Of a DNA stretch of 64,000 nucleotides, positions 26,392 through 33,167 are shown one piece after another (the stretch's first letter is position 1; every line of letters starts with the position of its first letter). A program made the translations under genes and the position numbers. The notes beneath the pieces were generated by a model that saw only the letters and a list, made by a program, of their open reading frames with translations, had not been told where the DNA came from and made no database searches. Location: assembly GCA_018402735.1 (NCBI GenBank), contig JAGYIF010000001.1, positions 372,001 through 436,000 on the forward strand, written 5' to 3'. Source of the DNA: Pelagibacteraceae bacterium. GTDB lineage: Bacteria; Pseudomonadota; Alphaproteobacteria; Pelagibacterales; Pelagibacteraceae.

Positions 26392-27156
26392 CTAATTTAA
26401 AACTAATCCACCATCAACGATTAAGTTTTGACCAGTCACTGCTCTTGACCAAGGTGAGGCAAAAAACAAAATAGCATCTGAGATATCTTCAATGGTTGTT
26501 ACTTTCCTTAATGGAGTAATGCTTGAAATATAATCAAAAACGCTATCAGGTGTTGCTTTACTCGCATCTGTAATTTTTAATAATCCACCTGAAACCATAT
26601 TAACAGTAATGTTATATTGACCTAAATCTATTGCTGAAGTTCTGGTTAGAGACAACAAGCCACTTTTAGCAGCGATATAGTCATGATAAGGAACAACAGG
26701 ATTTTGAAATAAATTAGTTCCAATAGTTACTATTCTTCCAAAATGTTGCTCTTTCATAGTAGGCGTAAAGACATTGATTAAATTTAGAAATCCTTTTTGT
26801 GTAGTATGAATTTGATTTTCAAAATCATTCCATTCTATTTCATCTATTTTTTTTCTCTGGTCGCCGTTAAAAATATAATCATCAATCGCATTATGGATAA
26901 TTGTATTAACAATAATGTTTTGTTTTTTTAACTCATCTTTGATTTTAAGAACATCATCTTTATTTCTTACATCTCCTTGAACTAAAACTGCCCTTTCACC
27001 TAGTGAGATACATAGTTTTTTAGCACTTTCAAAAGATTTTCTATAATTTATGATGACTTTTGCTCCCTCACGATAAAAGGATTTTGCTATTTCAGAACCC
27101 AATCCTCTTCCGGCACCTGTAATTAAAATTGTTTGTTTGTTGATAGGTAAATTCAT
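26392..27156 (-). CDS. TPP-riboswitch-controlled short-chain dehydrogenase/reductase
   Basis: From ATG 27156 the product has 254 residues (an earlier ATG at 27174 lies inside the riboswitch and is rejected). Classical SDR features: TGAGRGLG cofactor loop at 13-20, Y160-IAA-K164, and a C-terminal VTGQNLIVDGGLVLN. Departures: the residue 13 before the Tyr is T147, not Ser, and the NNAG motif reads HNAID (88-92). The substrate is unknown. Position behind a thiamin pyrophosphate riboswitch implies a role in thiamin or thiamin-precursor metabolism. A FabG-like oxidoreductase under THI-box control has been noted in comparative genomics under the name oarX (from memory), which may be the same family. 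No other thiamin gene is nearby. It converges with groEL. Confidence 0.85.
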   Translation of the reverse strand: MNLPINKQTILITGAGRGLGSEIAKSFYREGAKVIINYRKSFESAKKLCISLGERAVLVQGDVRNKDDVLKIKDELKKQNIIVNTIIHNAIDDYIFNGDQRKKIDEIEWNDFENQIHTTQKGFLNLINVFTPTMKEQHFGRIVTIGTNLFQNPVVPYHDYIAAKSGLLSLTRTSAIDLGQYNITVNMVSGGLLKITDASKATPDSVFDYISSITPLRKVTTIEDISDAILFFASPWSRAVTGQNLIVDGGLVLN

Positions 27157-27158
27157 TT

Positions 27159-27233
27159 GTTTCTCCCTACGCAAGCATTATCTTGTTCAGGTTTTGAGGG
27201 TACTTCTCAGATATAAATATCGCCCCTGAAAAC
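27159..27233 (-). promoter_or_regulatory. TPP riboswitch (THI box)
   Basis: Read on the minus strand the segment shows CAGGGG, a small P3 hairpin GATAT/ATATC, the invariant CTGAGA (27205-27210), ACCC, ACCTGA, the P5 helix CAAG-ATAATG-CTTG, and GCGTAGGGA. P5 keeps pairing where the usual CTGG/CCAG is replaced on both sides, strong evidence of a functional fold. Closing stem P1 pairs GTTTT (27229-27233) with GAAAC (27159-27163). The likely ribosome binding site GGGAG (27163-27167) overlaps P1 and is six bases from the ATG, so ligand binding could block translation directly. Confidence 0.95.
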
Positions 27234-27239
27234 ATTAAA

Positions 27240-27473: not shown

Positions 27474-27503
27474 AAAAAGGCCAGTTAAGAACTGGCCTTT
27501 TTT
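27474..27503. terminator. Bidirectional Rho-independent terminator after hisG
   Basis: Perfect arms GGCCAGTT and AACTGGCC around loop AAG, flanked by A5 on the left and T6 on the right, so it can terminate on either strand. It touches the hisG stop codon (27502-27504) and ends the long minus-strand series of his genes. Confidence 0.9.
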
Positions 27504-28170
27504 ATTTGAGGTTCTTTAAAAAATTATTTTTTTGGAATTTTTTTGAAACAAATAAACAAGCTGAACTCTTTAAGATATTTCCATCATTAACAATTCTAAG
27601 ATTATTGGCCTTAAGAGTAGATCCGGTTGATGCAATATCAGTAATAAGTTCTGCAGAACCAGTGAATGGGTAGGATTCAGTTGCTCCCAGACTTGCAACA
27701 ACTCTAAATTGACTTACACCCTTAGATAAAAAGAAAGTTTCGGTTAAATTTGGATATTTGGTTGCCACTCTCATTCTGCGACCGTATTTCTCTCTAAATT
27801 CAAAACTAACCTCTTCTAAATCTGCCATATTTTGCACATCAAGCCAATCTTTTGGAACTGCAACAACCAGATCGGCAAAACCAAAGCTTAGCTTTTGAAA
27901 TATTTTAACATTTTCTGAATATACTTCTGGAAATTCTTTTAACAAATCTAGTCCAGACACGCCCATATCCAAAGTTCCATCATTAATTCTTTCAATAATC
28001 TCTTTTGCTTGCAAGAATATACCTTCTACTTCATTTTTTCCTTCTATATTAAAAAAATAATTTCTTTCTCCAAATGAATTTTTTATTATTAACTTTTTAC
28101 TTTGAAAAAAATTTATGGCATCCTCTTTTAATCTACCTTTACTGGGCAAGCCTAATTTTATTTTATTCAT
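27502..28170 (-). CDS. hisG: ATP phosphoribosyltransferase, short form catalytic subunit
   Basis: First step of histidine biosynthesis, ATP + PRPP to phosphoribosyl-ATP. 222 residues, i.e. the short HisG lacking the C-terminal allosteric domain, which needs HisZ as regulatory partner. Motifs include LGLPSKGRLKEDA at the N-terminus, DMGVSGLDLL, and the PRPP loop GATESYPFTGSAELITDIASTGSTL. It follows hisZ with a one-base gap, agreeing with a 1:1 complex. The operon ends at the terminator overlapping its stop. Confidence 0.95.
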   Translation of the reverse strand: MNKIKLGLPSKGRLKEDAINFFQSKKLIIKNSFGERNYFFNIEGKNEVEGIFLQAKEIIERINDGTLDMGVSGLDLLKEFPEVYSENVKIFQKLSFGFADLVVAVPKDWLDVQNMADLEEVSFEFREKYGRRMRVATKYPNLTETFFLSKGVSQFRVVASLGATESYPFTGSAELITDIASTGSTLKANNLRIVNDGNILKSSACLFVSKKFQKNNFLKNLK

Positions 28171-28171
28171 A

Positions 28172-29260
28172 TTATAAGTTTATCAATTGATTTAAATTAA
28201 TAGCTCCACCAAAAGCTGGGATATCCTTTTTATAACCAAGAGTTTTAAGCAAAGTGTCGTATTCTCCACCTCTAGCAATTTCTATTAATTTAGATTTATT
28301 TAAAACATAAGCTAAAAAAACTAATCCTGTATAATATTCTGCATTTCTTCCAAAATTTGTTTTGAAATAAATTGTATATTTTTTACCTAGCGCATCGTTA
28401 ACACTAGAAATTTTTTTTAGATAAATGGCTAGATCTTTATTTCTTAAACTATTGTTAAAAAAAAATAAGCGAATAGCATTTTCTACTTTATCAATTGGTA
28501 AATTAATTTTTAAAAAGTCCCTAATAATTTTTACATTTTTTTTACCTTTAAAATTATCTCTAGGATCTTTTAATTTTTTTTCAAAACGTTGAATAATTTC
28601 AAAAACCGTTCTACCCCCAATAACCTGATTTTTATCCATCTTTTTAAGTTCTTTTAGACGTTTTGTATCAACCTCAATTGTTTGCTGATTAAGATCATAA
28701 TTAGTTTCCAATCTTTTAAGTAAATCTTCAAAATATTCTCTTCTGGAAAAATGTTTTATTAATCTAAATTTCCATCGTTCTGGTAATTCCAAAGAGTTTA
28801 CCAATATTTTAAACAAGCCAATATCTCCTACTGTAACTTCTAGTTTTTTAATTTTTTTAATAGGTTTGAGAACAGAATTGATAAGATTTATTTGAGATTT
28901 TTTATTATTGGAGTTTATGATTTCACAACCTATTTGATCAAAAACCTTTAGATTGCCTTTTTTATCTAAACGATAAGCAGTCCCAAAATAACAGTATTTC
29001 TCTTCTTTATTTTTTTTTTCTTGGATATATTTAATAGCAGTTGAAACCGTAAGATCGGGTCGCAAACTGATTTCTTTACCCAGTAAATCTTTGTAAGTTA
29101 ATGTAGTTTTTTTAAACTGCTCACCTGATCTTTCTGTTAATAAATTAGTGTCTATTAACAAATCTAGATCAGTAAAATTAAAATTGTTTTTTTCAAAACT
29201 ACTTAATATTTGTTTTGAAAAAAATTCTTTTAACCTTTTTTTTTCCAATCCTTGCTTCAT
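28172..29260 (-). CDS. hisZ: ATP phosphoribosyltransferase regulatory subunit HisZ
   Basis: 362 residues, a HisRS-like paralogue without aminoacylation activity that activates short HisG and transmits histidine feedback. The class II core shows TYKDLLGKEISLRPDLTVSTA and YFGTAYRLDKKG, with ARGGEYDTLL near the C-terminus, but the sequence is shorter than HisS and lacks the C-terminal anticodon domain. Overlaps hisS by four bases and precedes hisG. Confidence 0.9.
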   Translation of the reverse strand: MKQGLEKKRLKEFFSKQILSSFEKNNFNFTDLDLLIDTNLLTERSGEQFKKTTLTYKDLLGKEISLRPDLTVSTAIKYIQEKKNKEEKYCYFGTAYRLDKKGNLKVFDQIGCEIINSNNKKSQINLINSVLKPIKKIKKLEVTVGDIGLFKILVNSLELPERWKFRLIKHFSRREYFEDLLKRLETNYDLNQQTIEVDTKRLKELKKMDKNQVIGGRTVFEIIQRFEKKLKDPRDNFKGKKNVKIIRDFLKINLPIDKVENAIRLFFFNNSLRNKDLAIYLKKISSVNDALGKKYTIYFKTNFGRNAEYYTGLVFLAYVLNKSKLIEIARGGEYDTLLKTLGYKKDIPAFGGAINLNQLINL

Positions 29261-30696
29261 TTTTTAATTTCACTAATTAACTGATCAAAAGGTATGGTTT
29301 TTTGGACTTCGACGGACTGTTTCCAATCATCTCGATCTTTAAGATCTTCTGAAACTTTCTTGCCTATACTTAAATTTTTAATAGTAATAAGGTTTTTGGC
29401 AATCTCATCATCGCCACATAGAATTACAAACTTACATCCTCTTTTATCAGCATATTTAAGTTGCGATTTTATATTAGAATTTCCTGAATAAATTTCTGCA
29501 CTAATATTCTCAAATCTTAATAAATTTAAGATTTTTATATAATAATCCATATATTTTTCATCAAATACACATATTAAAATTGGACAATTTTTTTCTACTT
29601 TAATTTTATTTTTTTGGATGATTGCATAAATTAAACGGTCTAGGCCAACGGATATGCCCGTAGAAGGACAATCTTGATTATTAAATCGTTTAACAAGATC
29701 ATCATATCTTCCTCCTCCACCTATAGAGCCAAATTCAATTTCTTGTCCCTTATTATTCGTTACTTTAAAAGTTAAATTGGCTTCAAAAATAGGACCGGTG
29801 TAATATTCAAGACCTCTTACAAGAGTGGTGTCGAAATTATAATTTTCAAAATTAAATAATGAAAAATATTTTTTTATGAGTATTAGCTCATTTATACCAG
29901 CCATCATTTTTTCGTTGTTGTTAGCTATTGCTTTAATTTTTTCAAAATTATTTTCAGAAAGTTTTTTAATGTTTAAAAAATCAATAATTTTTGTAATTTG
30001 ATTATCTTTTAATTCTGCTCCCTTAGTGAAATCTCCTGACTTATCTTTTCTTCCCTCCGCAAGTAAATATCGGACGCCTTCAATCCCTACTCTGTCTAAT
30101 TTATCTATTGCCCTTAGAGTTATGGATTGCTTTTGTTCTTCGTTAATATTTAATTGCTCCAAAAGACCTTTAGTAAGTTTTCGATTTGAAACTTTAATTA
30201 TGAATTCATTTTTTTCTAAGCCACAGCTAGTGAGAATTTCTGAAATTAAAAAACATAACTCAGAGTCTGCAAATAGATTACTGGTACCTATATAGTCTGC
30301 ATCAAATTGCAAAAATTCTCTGAAACGACCCGGTCCTGGTTTTTCATTTCTCCAAACAGTCCCTAATTGATATCTCTTAAAAGGTCTTGGAATAGAATCG
30401 AAATTTTTAGCAGAATATCTTGCTAGTGGTGCTGTTAAATCATAACGAAGTGAAAGCCACTTTTTTTCATCTTCAAAAGAAAAAACACCCTCGGAAGGTC
30501 TTTCTTTGTCTGGTAAAAATTTTCCAATACTGTCTGTATACTCAAAACTAGGTGTTTCAAGATATTGGAATCCGTATTTAGACATAATCTTTTTAATGTT
30601 CAAAATTAAAAAATCTCGAATTAAAAGCTCTTCTTCTTGTCTATCTGCAAAACCAGCGGGTAATTCACTGCTGGGTTTAAAAGTTTTTTTATTCAT
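29257..30696 (-). CDS. hisS: Histidyl-tRNA synthetase
   Basis: Class II synthetase, 479 residues from ATG 30696 (MNKKTFKPSSELPAGFADR). The frame stays open to 30744, but those codons are the tRNA-His gene, so they are excluded. Motif 2 region LAPLARYSAKNFDSIPRPFKRYQLGTVWR is split across 95-125; the His-specific motif reads LVRGLEYYTGPIFEA, where the E. coli type has GLDYYNRTVFE. This variant and the extra length fit the alphaproteobacterial HisRS that recognises tRNA-His lacking G-1. The start lies only five bases from the tRNA 3' end, with no room for a ribosome binding site outside the tRNA. Confidence 0.94.
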   Translation of the reverse strand: MNKKTFKPSSELPAGFADRQEEELLIRDFLILNIKKIMSKYGFQYLETPSFEYTDSIGKFLPDKERPSEGVFSFEDEKKWLSLRYDLTAPLARYSAKNFDSIPRPFKRYQLGTVWRNEKPGPGRFREFLQFDADYIGTSNLFADSELCFLISEILTSCGLEKNEFIIKVSNRKLTKGLLEQLNINEEQKQSITLRAIDKLDRVGIEGVRYLLAEGRKDKSGDFTKGAELKDNQITKIIDFLNIKKLSENNFEKIKAIANNNEKMMAGINELILIKKYFSLFNFENYNFDTTLVRGLEYYTGPIFEANLTFKVTNNKGQEIEFGSIGGGGRYDDLVKRFNNQDCPSTGISVGLDRLIYAIIQKNKIKVEKNCPILICVFDEKYMDYYIKILNLLRFENISAEIYSGNSNIKSQLKYADKRGCKFVILCGDDEIAKNLITIKNLSIGKKVSEDLKDRDDWKQSVEVQKTIPFDQLISEIKK

Positions 30697-30701
30697 TGTT
30701 T

Positions 30702-30778
30702 TGGTACAGCTGGGTGGACTCGAACCACCGACATCTGGTTCCACAAACCAGCGCTCTAACCAACTGAGCTACAGCTGC
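30702..30778 (-). tRNA. tRNA-His (GTG), without encoded G-1
   Basis: 77-base cloverleaf with encoded CCA. The anticodon loop TTTGTGGAA gives GTG. Acceptor GCAGCTG pairs with CAGCTGT, leaving a G1-U72 wobble; the discriminator is A73 and the base at -1 is T. Canonical bacterial tRNA-His has G-1 and C73, so this is the noncanonical type known from a group of alphaproteobacteria such as Caulobacter. Lies directly before hisS. Confidence 0.96.
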
Positions 30779-30825
30779 ATAATATTTTTTGTTTATAATA
30801 GTATTCTTAATTTAAATATATAATT

Positions 30826-30891
30826 CTATTGGCCAAGCGTATGCCCAGCGTGGGAATGGTGTCTATGAGTAGATATATTTTTTTTTGTCAT
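30826..30891 (-). CDS. Candidate histidine leader peptide (21 codons, five His)
   Basis: Short ORF from ATG 30891 to TAG 30826. The core THRHHSHAGH has five His codons within ten positions, in a genome where His is rare. It lies on the minus strand between tRNA-Phe and tRNA-His-hisS-hisZ-hisG, the place expected for an attenuator of histidine genes. A possible promoter lies 15-40 bases upstream. No strong Shine-Dalgarno is seen, and no GC-rich terminator/antiterminator pair was found after it; only a weak CCCA/TGGG hairpin inside the His region and AT-rich sequence up to the tRNA. It is therefore a candidate, resembling gammaproteobacterial hisL in logic, not in sequence. Confidence 0.45.
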   Translation of the reverse strand: MTKKNISTHRHHSHAGHTLGQ

Positions 30892-30906
30892 TTCAATTGA
30901 GGGTTG

Positions 30907-30933
30907 ATTATCAATACAATAAATAAATTGCAA
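30907..30933 (-). promoter_or_regulatory. Putative promoter before the His-rich leader
   Basis: Minus-strand TTGCAA (30928-30933) and GATAAT (30907-30912) with a 15-base spacer, shorter than ideal. A start about seven bases downstream would leave a leader of around eight bases before the His-rich ORF. Confidence 0.3.
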
Positions 30934-30941
30934 ATAAAAAA

Positions 30942-31017
30942 TGGTGGTCTGGGGTGGATTTGAACCACCGACACAAGCCTTTTCAGGGCTCTGCTCTACC
31001 AACTGAGCTACCAGACC
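30942..31017 (-). tRNA. tRNA-Phe (GAA)
   Basis: 76-base cloverleaf with encoded CCA. Acceptor GGTCTGG/CCAGACC, discriminator A, anticodon loop CTGAAAA giving GAA, T-loop GGTTCAAATCC. Located 45 bases downstream of maf on the same strand, so it may be co-transcribed with it. Confidence 0.96.
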
Positions 31018-31062: not shown

Positions 31063-31641
31063 CTAAATTAAATTCGATGTTTTTAGTAAGTTAAAAGCTT
31101 GTTGAAGTGGCAATCCTACAATATTTGAATAAGATCCATTTATTGTTTTAACAAATCGCTCCGCATAGCCTTGGATTGCATAGGCTCCCGCTTTATTTTC
31201 CCACTCTCTAGTTGCCAAATATATATCCATATCTTTTTTCTCTAATCGGATGAAAGTAACTTTAGAGATAGAGTATTTAATTTTAGATAAATTTTTATTG
31301 CGAAGGTAAATTGCTGTTAATACCGAATGTTTTCTGCCTGAAAAAAAATTTAAAAAGCTTCTAGCTTCCTCGTCTGAAGATGCCTTTCCAAAAATTTTAT
31401 TACTACAAAAAACAATCGTATCAGCTGATAATACCGTCATGTCAGGATAGTTTTGAAAAACAAAATCACCCTTCTCTCTTGCAAGTCTTTTACAATATTC
31501 TATTGGTTTTTCTTTTTTTTTTGGTGTTTCGTCAATATTTGCGGCTTGTATAATTTCAGGTACAATATTAATTTTATTCAATAATTCTAATCGTCGAGAA
31601 GATGCGCTTGCCAAAACTAAACCTTTGGTAATTTTGGACAT
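31063..31641 (-). CDS. maf: Maf-like nucleoside triphosphate pyrophosphatase
   Basis: 192 residues. N-terminal LVLASASSRRLELLNKI and ADTIVFCSNKIFGKASSDEEA are the Maf signatures, along with the C-terminal GAYAIQGYAERFVKTINGSYSNIVGLPL. Members hydrolyse noncanonical or modified pyrimidine nucleotides (dTTP/UTP/pseudo-UTP types); which one is open. It starts immediately after the infA stop (TAAATG), the common alphaproteobacterial order infA-maf. Confidence 0.93.
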   Translation of the reverse strand: MSKITKGLVLASASSRRLELLNKINIVPEIIQAANIDETPKKKEKPIEYCKRLAREKGDFVFQNYPDMTVLSADTIVFCSNKIFGKASSDEEARSFLNFFSGRKHSVLTAIYLRNKNLSKIKYSISKVTFIRLEKKDMDIYLATREWENKAGAYAIQGYAERFVKTINGSYSNIVGLPLQQAFNLLKTSNLI

Positions 31642-31865: not shown

Positions 31866-33167
31866 TTATTTTTGGTTATTGATACGTGTCATAATCGAAA
31901 GAGCGTGTGCTTGCAACCCTTCATAATTTGCAAGGTTAACTGCAGCAGGTCCAATTTTTTTAATGCCAAGTTTTGTACATTTTATAACTGATGTTTTTTT
32001 ATAAAAATCAGCAACTGACAATCCAGAAGAAAATCTTGCGGTTCCCGACGTAGGTAAAACGTGATTAGGTCCAGCAATGTAATCACCTATTGCTTCGGGA
32101 CTATAATTTCCTAAAAAAATAGAACCTGCATTAATAATTTTTTTTTCTAACTCATCACAATTTTTAACTTTTATTTCAAGATGTTCTGGCGCTATTTTAT
32201 TAGCAATTTCAATAATTTCTTTATCGTTTTTGCAAATAATAATTGTTCCGTAGTTCTTTATGCTAGCTCGAGCAATTTTAGATCTTGGCAATTTGTTAAT
32301 AATGCGTTCAATTTCATATTTAACTTTCCTCGCAAATATGTTGCTCTTGGTAATTAAAATACTTTGGGACAATTCGTCATGCTCTGCTTGTGATAATAAA
32401 TCAATAGCCGTCCATGTTGGATTGTTTTCTGGTCCAGCAATTACCGTTATTTCTGAAGGACCTGCAATCATATCAATGCCAACTTGTCCAAAAACCTCCT
32501 TTTTAGCAGTTGCTACAAAAATATTACCTGGTCCTACTATTTTATCTACTTGATCAACCGATTTTGTGCCATATGCAAAAGCTGCAATAGCCTGCGCTCC
32601 ACCAATTCTGTAAATTTTTTTTACTCCGCAAATTTTAGCCGCATAAATAACACCTGCATTAATTTCATTATTAGGTGCGGGTACAGCTGCATAAATATTT
32701 TTTACACCAGCAACAATTGCGGGCACTGAGTTCATAATAACTGTGCTAGGATAACTTGCTTTACCTCCGGGTACATAAATGCCCACTTTATTTAAAGACG
32801 TATATTTGTAACCAAGAAGGTTGCCATAACTATCTTTATACTTAAATGAATGATTAACTTGCTTTAAATGAAAATTTTTTACTCTTGTATAGGCGAGTTC
32901 AATTGCCTTTTTAATTTTAAAATCAAGTTTTGTAATAATCGCTAGAATTTCTTTGTTACTCAATTGTATATTATTTTTATTTAAAGAAATCTTGTCAAAT
33001 TTTTTTGAATATTTGATTAAAGATTTATCTCCATTTTTTTTAATATCACTAATAATCTTTAAAACAGTGGATTGTTTAGAACTAGACTGCTGACGCTTTG
33101 AATTTAGAACTTTATTAAATTCCTTTTGAAAACCAGCTTTCTTTGTATCTAATATATATTTCATCAA
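31866..33167 (-). CDS. hisD: Histidinol dehydrogenase
   Basis: 433 residues; zinc and NAD enzyme for the last two steps of histidine synthesis. Recognised from [44 protein letters not shown], the catalytic Glu-His in IAPEHLEI, and [14 protein letters not shown]. Overlaps DUF2948 by four bases. It lies upstream of hisS-hisZ-hisG on the same strand; the remaining his genes are not in this window. Confidence 0.96.

Follow-up and report, generated by a model that had tools for sequence, protein, structure and literature searches.

The window (i.e. the whole stretch of 64,000 nucleotides analysed here) derives from a SAR11-like, AT-rich genome of 1.32 Mb, whose closest named contigs are those of Pelagibacteraceae CP.31 and Candidatus Fonsibacter. 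On its minus strand we observed the order hisD, maf, tRNA-Phe, leader, tRNA-His, hisS, hisZ and hisG (Table 1), in which the leader is a short open reading frame (ORF) of 21 codons between tRNA-Phe and the tRNA-His-hisS-hisZ-hisG unit. The first-pass annotation had described this ORF, with five His codons within THRHHSHAGH, as a candidate histidine leader peptide, and both the ORF and its His codons (CAT, CAC, CAT, CAC and CAT, in order) were recovered in the sequence. Its account of the gene context (tRNA-His, HisRS, HisZ and HisG downstream, hisD upstream, all on the same strand) agrees with ARAGORN and Pfam, but passes over the tRNA-Phe and Maf genes that separate hisD from the leader. As in amino-acid attenuators, an ORF with clustered cognate codons (frame-specific and conserved, its translation being predicted) stands ahead of genes for the same amino acid, namely hisS in all cases, and tRNA-His, hisZ and hisG in the window. 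The tRNA-His of the window has no encoded G-1 (T at position -1), a G1-U72 pair and A73, and so shows the exception that Alphaproteobacteria make to the otherwise universal rule for tRNA-His.

Table 1. Features of the leader locus, in positions of the window.
Feature	Position	Strand	Evidence	Remarks
HisD	31866-33167	-	Pfam	
Maf	31063-31641	-	Pfam	
tRNA-Phe(GAA)	30942-31017	-	ARAGORN	
Putative leader promoter	30907-30933	-	sequence	TTGCAA 30933-30928, 15 nt, GATAAT 30912-30907
Leader ORF	30826-30891	-	sequence and conservation	MTKKNISTHRHHSHAGHTLGQ, then stop; probably leaderless, no Shine-Dalgarno
His codon cluster	30841-30867	-		codons 30867-30865, 30861-30859, 30858-30856, 30852-30850, 30843-30841
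P0, 5' strand	30873-30880	-	RNAfold MFE of 30779-30891 and partner-swap test	AAAUAUAU; leader codons 4-7
P2	30832-30849	-	MFE -8.2 kcal/mol alone	GCUGGGC-AUAC-GCUUGGC; begins right after the fourth His codon, spans the ORF 3' end
P0, 3' strand	30814-30821	-	RNAfold MFE of 30779-30891 and partner-swap test	AUAUAUUU; just past P2 and the stop codon
Spacer	30779-30825	-	composition and conservation	AU-rich, G-poor; TATAA-like box 13-20 nt 5' of tRNA-His
tRNA-His(GTG)	30702-30778	-	ARAGORN and Rfam	nearest gene 3' of the leader
hisS (HisRS)	29257-30696	-	Pfam PF13393	ATG 5 nt past the tRNA-His CCA, no Shine-Dalgarno between
hisZ	28172-29260	-	Pfam	HisRS-like core without anticodon domain; overlaps the hisS end
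hisG	27502-28170	-	Pfam PF01634	short form

Among the intergenic short ORFs of the window (54 in all), that of the leader had the most extreme composition (single-residue enrichment 7.4e-7); in 400 kb of a congener, none of 387 such ORFs came nearer than 7.3e-5, nor did any stand out when leaders for other amino acids were sought. ORFs with five His in ten residues appeared in 2 of 20 runs of first-order Markov versions of the window, and the decisive evidence is conservation. By means of hisS and tRNA searches within the same family, and of the spacers upstream of tRNA-His, a small His-core ORF was recovered from all family genomes that could be read here (152 distinct leaders); the family loci without it are solely contigs that end at the tRNA, and the nearest relative (99% identical HisS) stands outside the count, as its contig ends at this place. 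In six more genomes the ORF is present though ARAGORN reports no tRNA-His or our first filter missed the ORF. The distance from ORF to tRNA-His is 42-69 nt across the family (with one outlier at 89), and the short ORF and its His codons are kept while the flanks drift apart and the upstream genes vary (some genera have tRNA-Phe and Maf there, the rest other genes). The first-pass annotation had held that His codons and frame conserved amid drifting flanks would speak for a leader peptide, and relatives devoid of a His-rich ORF at this place against it; the former is what we observed, the latter is contradicted by all 152 distinct family leaders, and the comparison of sequences supports the reading as a His leader peptide.

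Among 151 distinct leaders, His accounts for 14.0% of the codons in the ORF frame versus 3.9% and 2.4% in the other two (each ORF having been picked among candidates by its His count, the comparison of frames, along with the hairpin described below, is the stronger evidence). The codon abutting the hairpin encodes His in 130/151 leaders and the codon three earlier in 126/151, with interchange of CAT and CAC at both (CAT/CAC 59/69 at the last core His codon and 33/85 three codons earlier). Only one or two His codons are present in 13/151 leaders, which are weak for a pure starvation sensor. Outside the core the peptides are very different (e.g. THRHHSHAGHTLGQ, HSHRMHARLLLSL, KHHFAHARLLLS, THRHHFHAGCTLAI and THRLCFHSL), and some longer leaders of genus g4 and its relatives (L081, L083, L084, L092, L079 and L250) carry, ahead of the His core, a repeated ST-LRK/GTNRG-like stretch, which in part could fold into an additional hairpin further upstream (CUUUAAG...CUUAAAG). 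In part of the same genus (G008, G021, G061, G086 and others) HisRS is about 44-48% identical to that of the window, versus 54-62% in other g4 genomes, which suggests a replacement or fast change of hisS in which the leader was kept.

The 3' end of the ORF is predicted to fold into a hairpin (P2), for which a stem of at least 5 bp is present in 151 of the 152 leaders, 129 of them with a stem that begins directly after a His codon; in 17/17 leaders that are less than 72% identical, the stem here reaches 6 bp or more, versus 0.97 expected from shuffles. The stems were compared one by one across clades (a MAFFT alignment mis-registered them), and the alternative versions (GCURRGC/GCUURGC, GCUGGC/GCUAGC, AUAGCC/GGCUAU, GCAAGC/GCUUGC and ACGGCU/AGCCGU) are unrelated yet complementary. 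Of 60 family genomes, 41 contain the motif CAYGCTRRGCN4GCTTRGC, each a single time, and none contains its reversed control. The stop codon may fall after, inside or before the 3' arm of P2, the constant feature being the adjacency of His codon and hairpin. Support for the fold of the leader is comparative, the window leader by itself folding not significantly better than its shuffles (z -0.3 to -1.1). P2 is a covarying helix set against the His codons, which overlaps the stop or comes after it, and whose formation, judging by this geometry, would depend on ribosome position. Three other roles were considered for P2 and rejected: a DNA operator (the changes in the 7-bp class are purines opposite U, so that the RNA stem survives and the DNA palindrome breaks), a mimic of the tRNA anticodon (P2 has no GUG loop) and pairing with tRNA-His (a match of 6 nt is confined to certain members of the window's genus).

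One conserved hairpin before hisS would also suit binding of HisRS, HisZ or some other protein to the RNA (i.e. autogenous control, to which the His codons would be secondary), and thrS-like autoregulation through tRNA mimicry is known elsewhere. We consider such binding hardly credible, given that the loops (AUAC, UAUU, AAAA, UGCAC and UUU) and stems are free to vary, that no loop resembles a GUG anticodon, and that the frame-specific His codons would be left without explanation. A functional His-rich micropeptide (e.g. metal-binding or trans-acting), with its linkage to hisS secondary, would account for frame and His codons conserved with synonymous interchange, and the Sinorhizobium meliloti leader peptide peTrpL is reported to act in trans (PMC7298713); we regard it as very improbable, in view of a C-terminus that is wholly different by clade (ARLLLS, GCTLAI, HAG-stop and HSL-stop) above a hairpin that persists, of sister-family peptides of just 11 residues, and of a single copy always 5' of hisS.

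A second predicted helix (P0) joins the first 12-20 nt of the ORF with a complementary stretch immediately behind P2. Swaps of partners between divergent family leaders reduced the P0 pairing score (p about 1e-4 to 2e-3), and neighbouring control segments had no significant effect in these tests. From the RNA part of the first-pass annotation the His ORF stands, whereas P2 and the start-codon helix P0, which constitute the best evidence for an RNA-based mechanism, had been missed. As regards the start of the transcript, the -10-like box ends about 15 nt before the ATG in the window's genus, and other family groups, when aligned at the ATG, display TTGMAW, 16-17 nt and TAnnnA ending 6-8 nt 5' of the ATG; a Shine-Dalgarno sequence before the leader ATG is absent in the groups so aligned. 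Since the promoter is so close and no Shine-Dalgarno is present, the leader ORF is probably leaderless, a condition documented for the attenuator ORF trpL of S. meliloti (PMC10117765).

Past P2 the first 30 nt are G-free in 135/151 leaders, versus 2.9% of the intergenic 30-mers of a congener. The window has CAATAGAA at this place (1 U in 8) and the family a mean of 3.6 U in 8 nt, whereas for hairpins just past gene ends (window and congener) the averages lie, according to strand, at 3.6-6.5 U in 8, and ordinary intrinsic terminators exist in this genus. A canonical terminator after P2 was rejected on account of this low U content, as the first-pass annotation had anticipated, and inspection of the SAR11 leaders for an antiterminator/terminator pair revealed neither a U-tract terminator nor a P3-type competing hairpin. 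We deem it quite unlikely that P2 itself is a weak intrinsic terminator of the classical kind: its A/U-only tract and one divergent leader (L132, with an 8-U run 8 nt past the hairpin) are in favour, but the U content is that given above and the geometry would turn the operon off under starvation.

The TATAA-like box 5' of tRNA-His is conserved without a -35, and might serve as a promoter of its own, from which transcription would skip the leader. Between the tRNA-His CCA and the hisS ATG, nearly all family members have 3-5 nt and no Shine-Dalgarno, an arrangement in which excision of the tRNA probably frees the hisS mRNA almost without a 5' leader (tRNA punctuation). An hisS mRNA freed in this way would be out of reach of anything that later happens to the leader RNA, which argues for control on transcription before the tRNA. 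The same junction, together with the G-free, unstructured AU spacer directly 5' of the tRNA and the missing terminator, would fit a post-transcriptional leader, in which the stalled ribosome and P2 alter RNase cleavage of the spacer and hence the release of tRNA-His and of the near-leaderless hisS mRNA. We find this unlikely, as 5' and 3' maturation of tRNAs is normally constitutive and the leader is conserved before hisS even where tRNA-His does not lie between them.

Such is the case in the sister family (f2), where tRNA-His is located elsewhere and 12/12 loci have an 11-residue leader before hisS, typically Mx(4)HHHxHI and a stop (e.g. MIVNTHHHIHI), with variants in one leader (HHYH) and in two others (HHTAH). 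The stop is followed by a hairpin with variable but paired stems (GUUUGUUAAAA/UUUUAACAGAC, GUUUGCUGA/UCAGCGAAC, GUUUGCUAG/CUAGCAGAC and GUUUGUUAG/CUAACAAAC), and ACRACCCC precedes hisS. No match for P0 was found behind P2 in this family; by eye only, the AUG region of its leaders L238-L249 is complementary to their own first His codons (AUGUUUA/UAAACAU and AUGAU/AUCAU), possibly a second way to occlude the start codon. A class-wide sample yielded one GC-rich genome with MNTALHHHHHHS and a stop, and in the GC-rich alphaproteobacterial family to which it belongs (f133) a leader (MNTTLHHHHHHA and a stop, and variants) precedes hisS in 11/31 loci (L281, L314, L315, L319, L321, L326, L328, L329, L331, L333 and L335). 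Similar to the SAR11 leader, that of f133 has a promoter near the ATG, mostly 3-6 His codons, a hairpin after the stop (stop-CGCGCC...GGCGCG), P0 (AUGAACAC with GUGUUCAU and AUGAAAAC with GUUUUCAU; partner-swap p 1e-4) and hisS downstream. It differs by a second hairpin that competes with the first (GAGGCGC...GCGCCUC), the two being a candidate P2/P3 pair, and by what lies between leader and hisS, i.e. tRNA-Gln(UUG) in four loci (L326, L328, L331 and L335) and no called tRNA in the other seven. In both the sister family and the GC-rich one the leader still precedes hisS although tRNA-His is not there, so we consider hisS to be the constant target.

On the strength of the ORF, its His codons, P2, P0 and the linkage to hisS, all of them supported by comparison of sequences, we think it likely that a His-tRNA-dependent, ribosome-mediated cis leader controls the tRNA-His/hisS/hisZ/hisG unit, and that it probably lets SAR11-family bacteria adjust tRNA-His and its charging enzyme to the histidine supply. 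We infer the following course, from the leaderless start and the stalling to the direction in which expression would change and the way transcription would end. RNA polymerase would start at, or a few bases 5' of, the AUG, and a ribosome would load straight onto the 5' end. With ample His-tRNA, this ribosome would cross the His codons, unfold P2, terminate and leave, and the start region of the vacated leader would pair behind P2 (forming P0), barring new ribosomes. With scarce His-tRNA it would stall no closer than about 12 nt from P2, at the early His codons, and P2 would then be free to form, while the occupied leader would prevent P0 and favour the expression of tRNA-His, hisS, hisZ and hisG. 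As starvation should raise both synthetase and biosynthesis, the stalled state should be the expressed one, and as tRNA-His must be excised between leader and hisS, the signal would most likely act on the read-through of RNA polymerase before the tRNA. The output would consist in polymerase release where the leader is vacated and P0 closed, and in read-through where a stalled ribosome is present; without a U-tract, release in the G-free AU spacer could be Rho-dependent or hairpin-assisted. That release is most likely Rho-dependent is part of this output scheme, which we advance tentatively and at somewhat less than even confidence. Somewhat more doubtful is the wider proposal of a one-round leaderless attenuator in SAR11 and some other alphaproteobacteria, in which a single ribosome per transcript would test histidyl-tRNA, the start helix would then close the 5' end, the outcome would be reached without any intrinsic terminator, and a tRNA gene would be controlled along with its own synthetase. 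SAR11 cells rank with the most abundant in the ocean and possess few protein regulators; if the leader acts as proposed, one histidine sensor would couple both their capacity for translation and their biosynthesis to a single amino acid, and the one-round scheme, if true, would represent a distinct, terminator-free class of amino-acid attenuation. With P0 present and no terminator, the mechanism becomes a well-defined question that could be taken up in those alphaproteobacteria of the GC-rich family which are genetically tractable.

In Escherichia coli and Salmonella, hisL is a short ORF with clustered His codons before the histidine genes, in which ribosome position decides between helices. 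The SAR11 leader resembles this attenuator (hisL; Rfam His_leader) in its short ORF with clustered His and in RNA helices whose placement would let ribosome position decide between them, and differs from it by targeting tRNA-His and HisRS besides HisZ and HisG, by being probably leaderless, by P0, and by lacking a U-tract terminator and an Rfam match. We class it under amino-acid attenuation but not with the hisL family, since no such terminator was recovered. His leader peptides for hisS* and hisZ were described in bacilli by Naville and Gautheret (2010), where they were found as premature intrinsic terminators and share no sequence with the proteobacterial ones (PMC2965389); they are alike in placing a His-codon peptide before a gene of the HisRS family, and the SAR11 leader is unlike them in having no intrinsic terminator. 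As an alphaproteobacterial attenuator with a leaderless ORF, S. meliloti trpL/rnTrpL (PMC10117765 and PMC7298713) is comparable, but it serves Trp and precedes trpE, whereas in the SAR11 His leader no terminator could be recognised. A search of the open-access literature returned no report of a SAR11 or alphaproteobacterial hisS leader. The leader appears to have been missed so far: the intergenic regions listed in the SAR11 RNA search of Meyer et al. 2009 (PMC2704228) had tRNA and rRNA removed, and its invariant sequence is too scant to be picked up by plain homology searches. With Rfam 15, the window matched only tRNA and TPP riboswitch models and the other leaders only tRNA, apart from one sub-threshold chance match; no covariance model match was obtained in the window or the other leaders for the T-box (the hisS type of Firmicutes). 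The TPP riboswitch (RF00059, 71 bits, positions 27147-27237 on the minus strand) lies downstream of hisG, directly 5' of a short-chain dehydrogenase gene (26392-27174).
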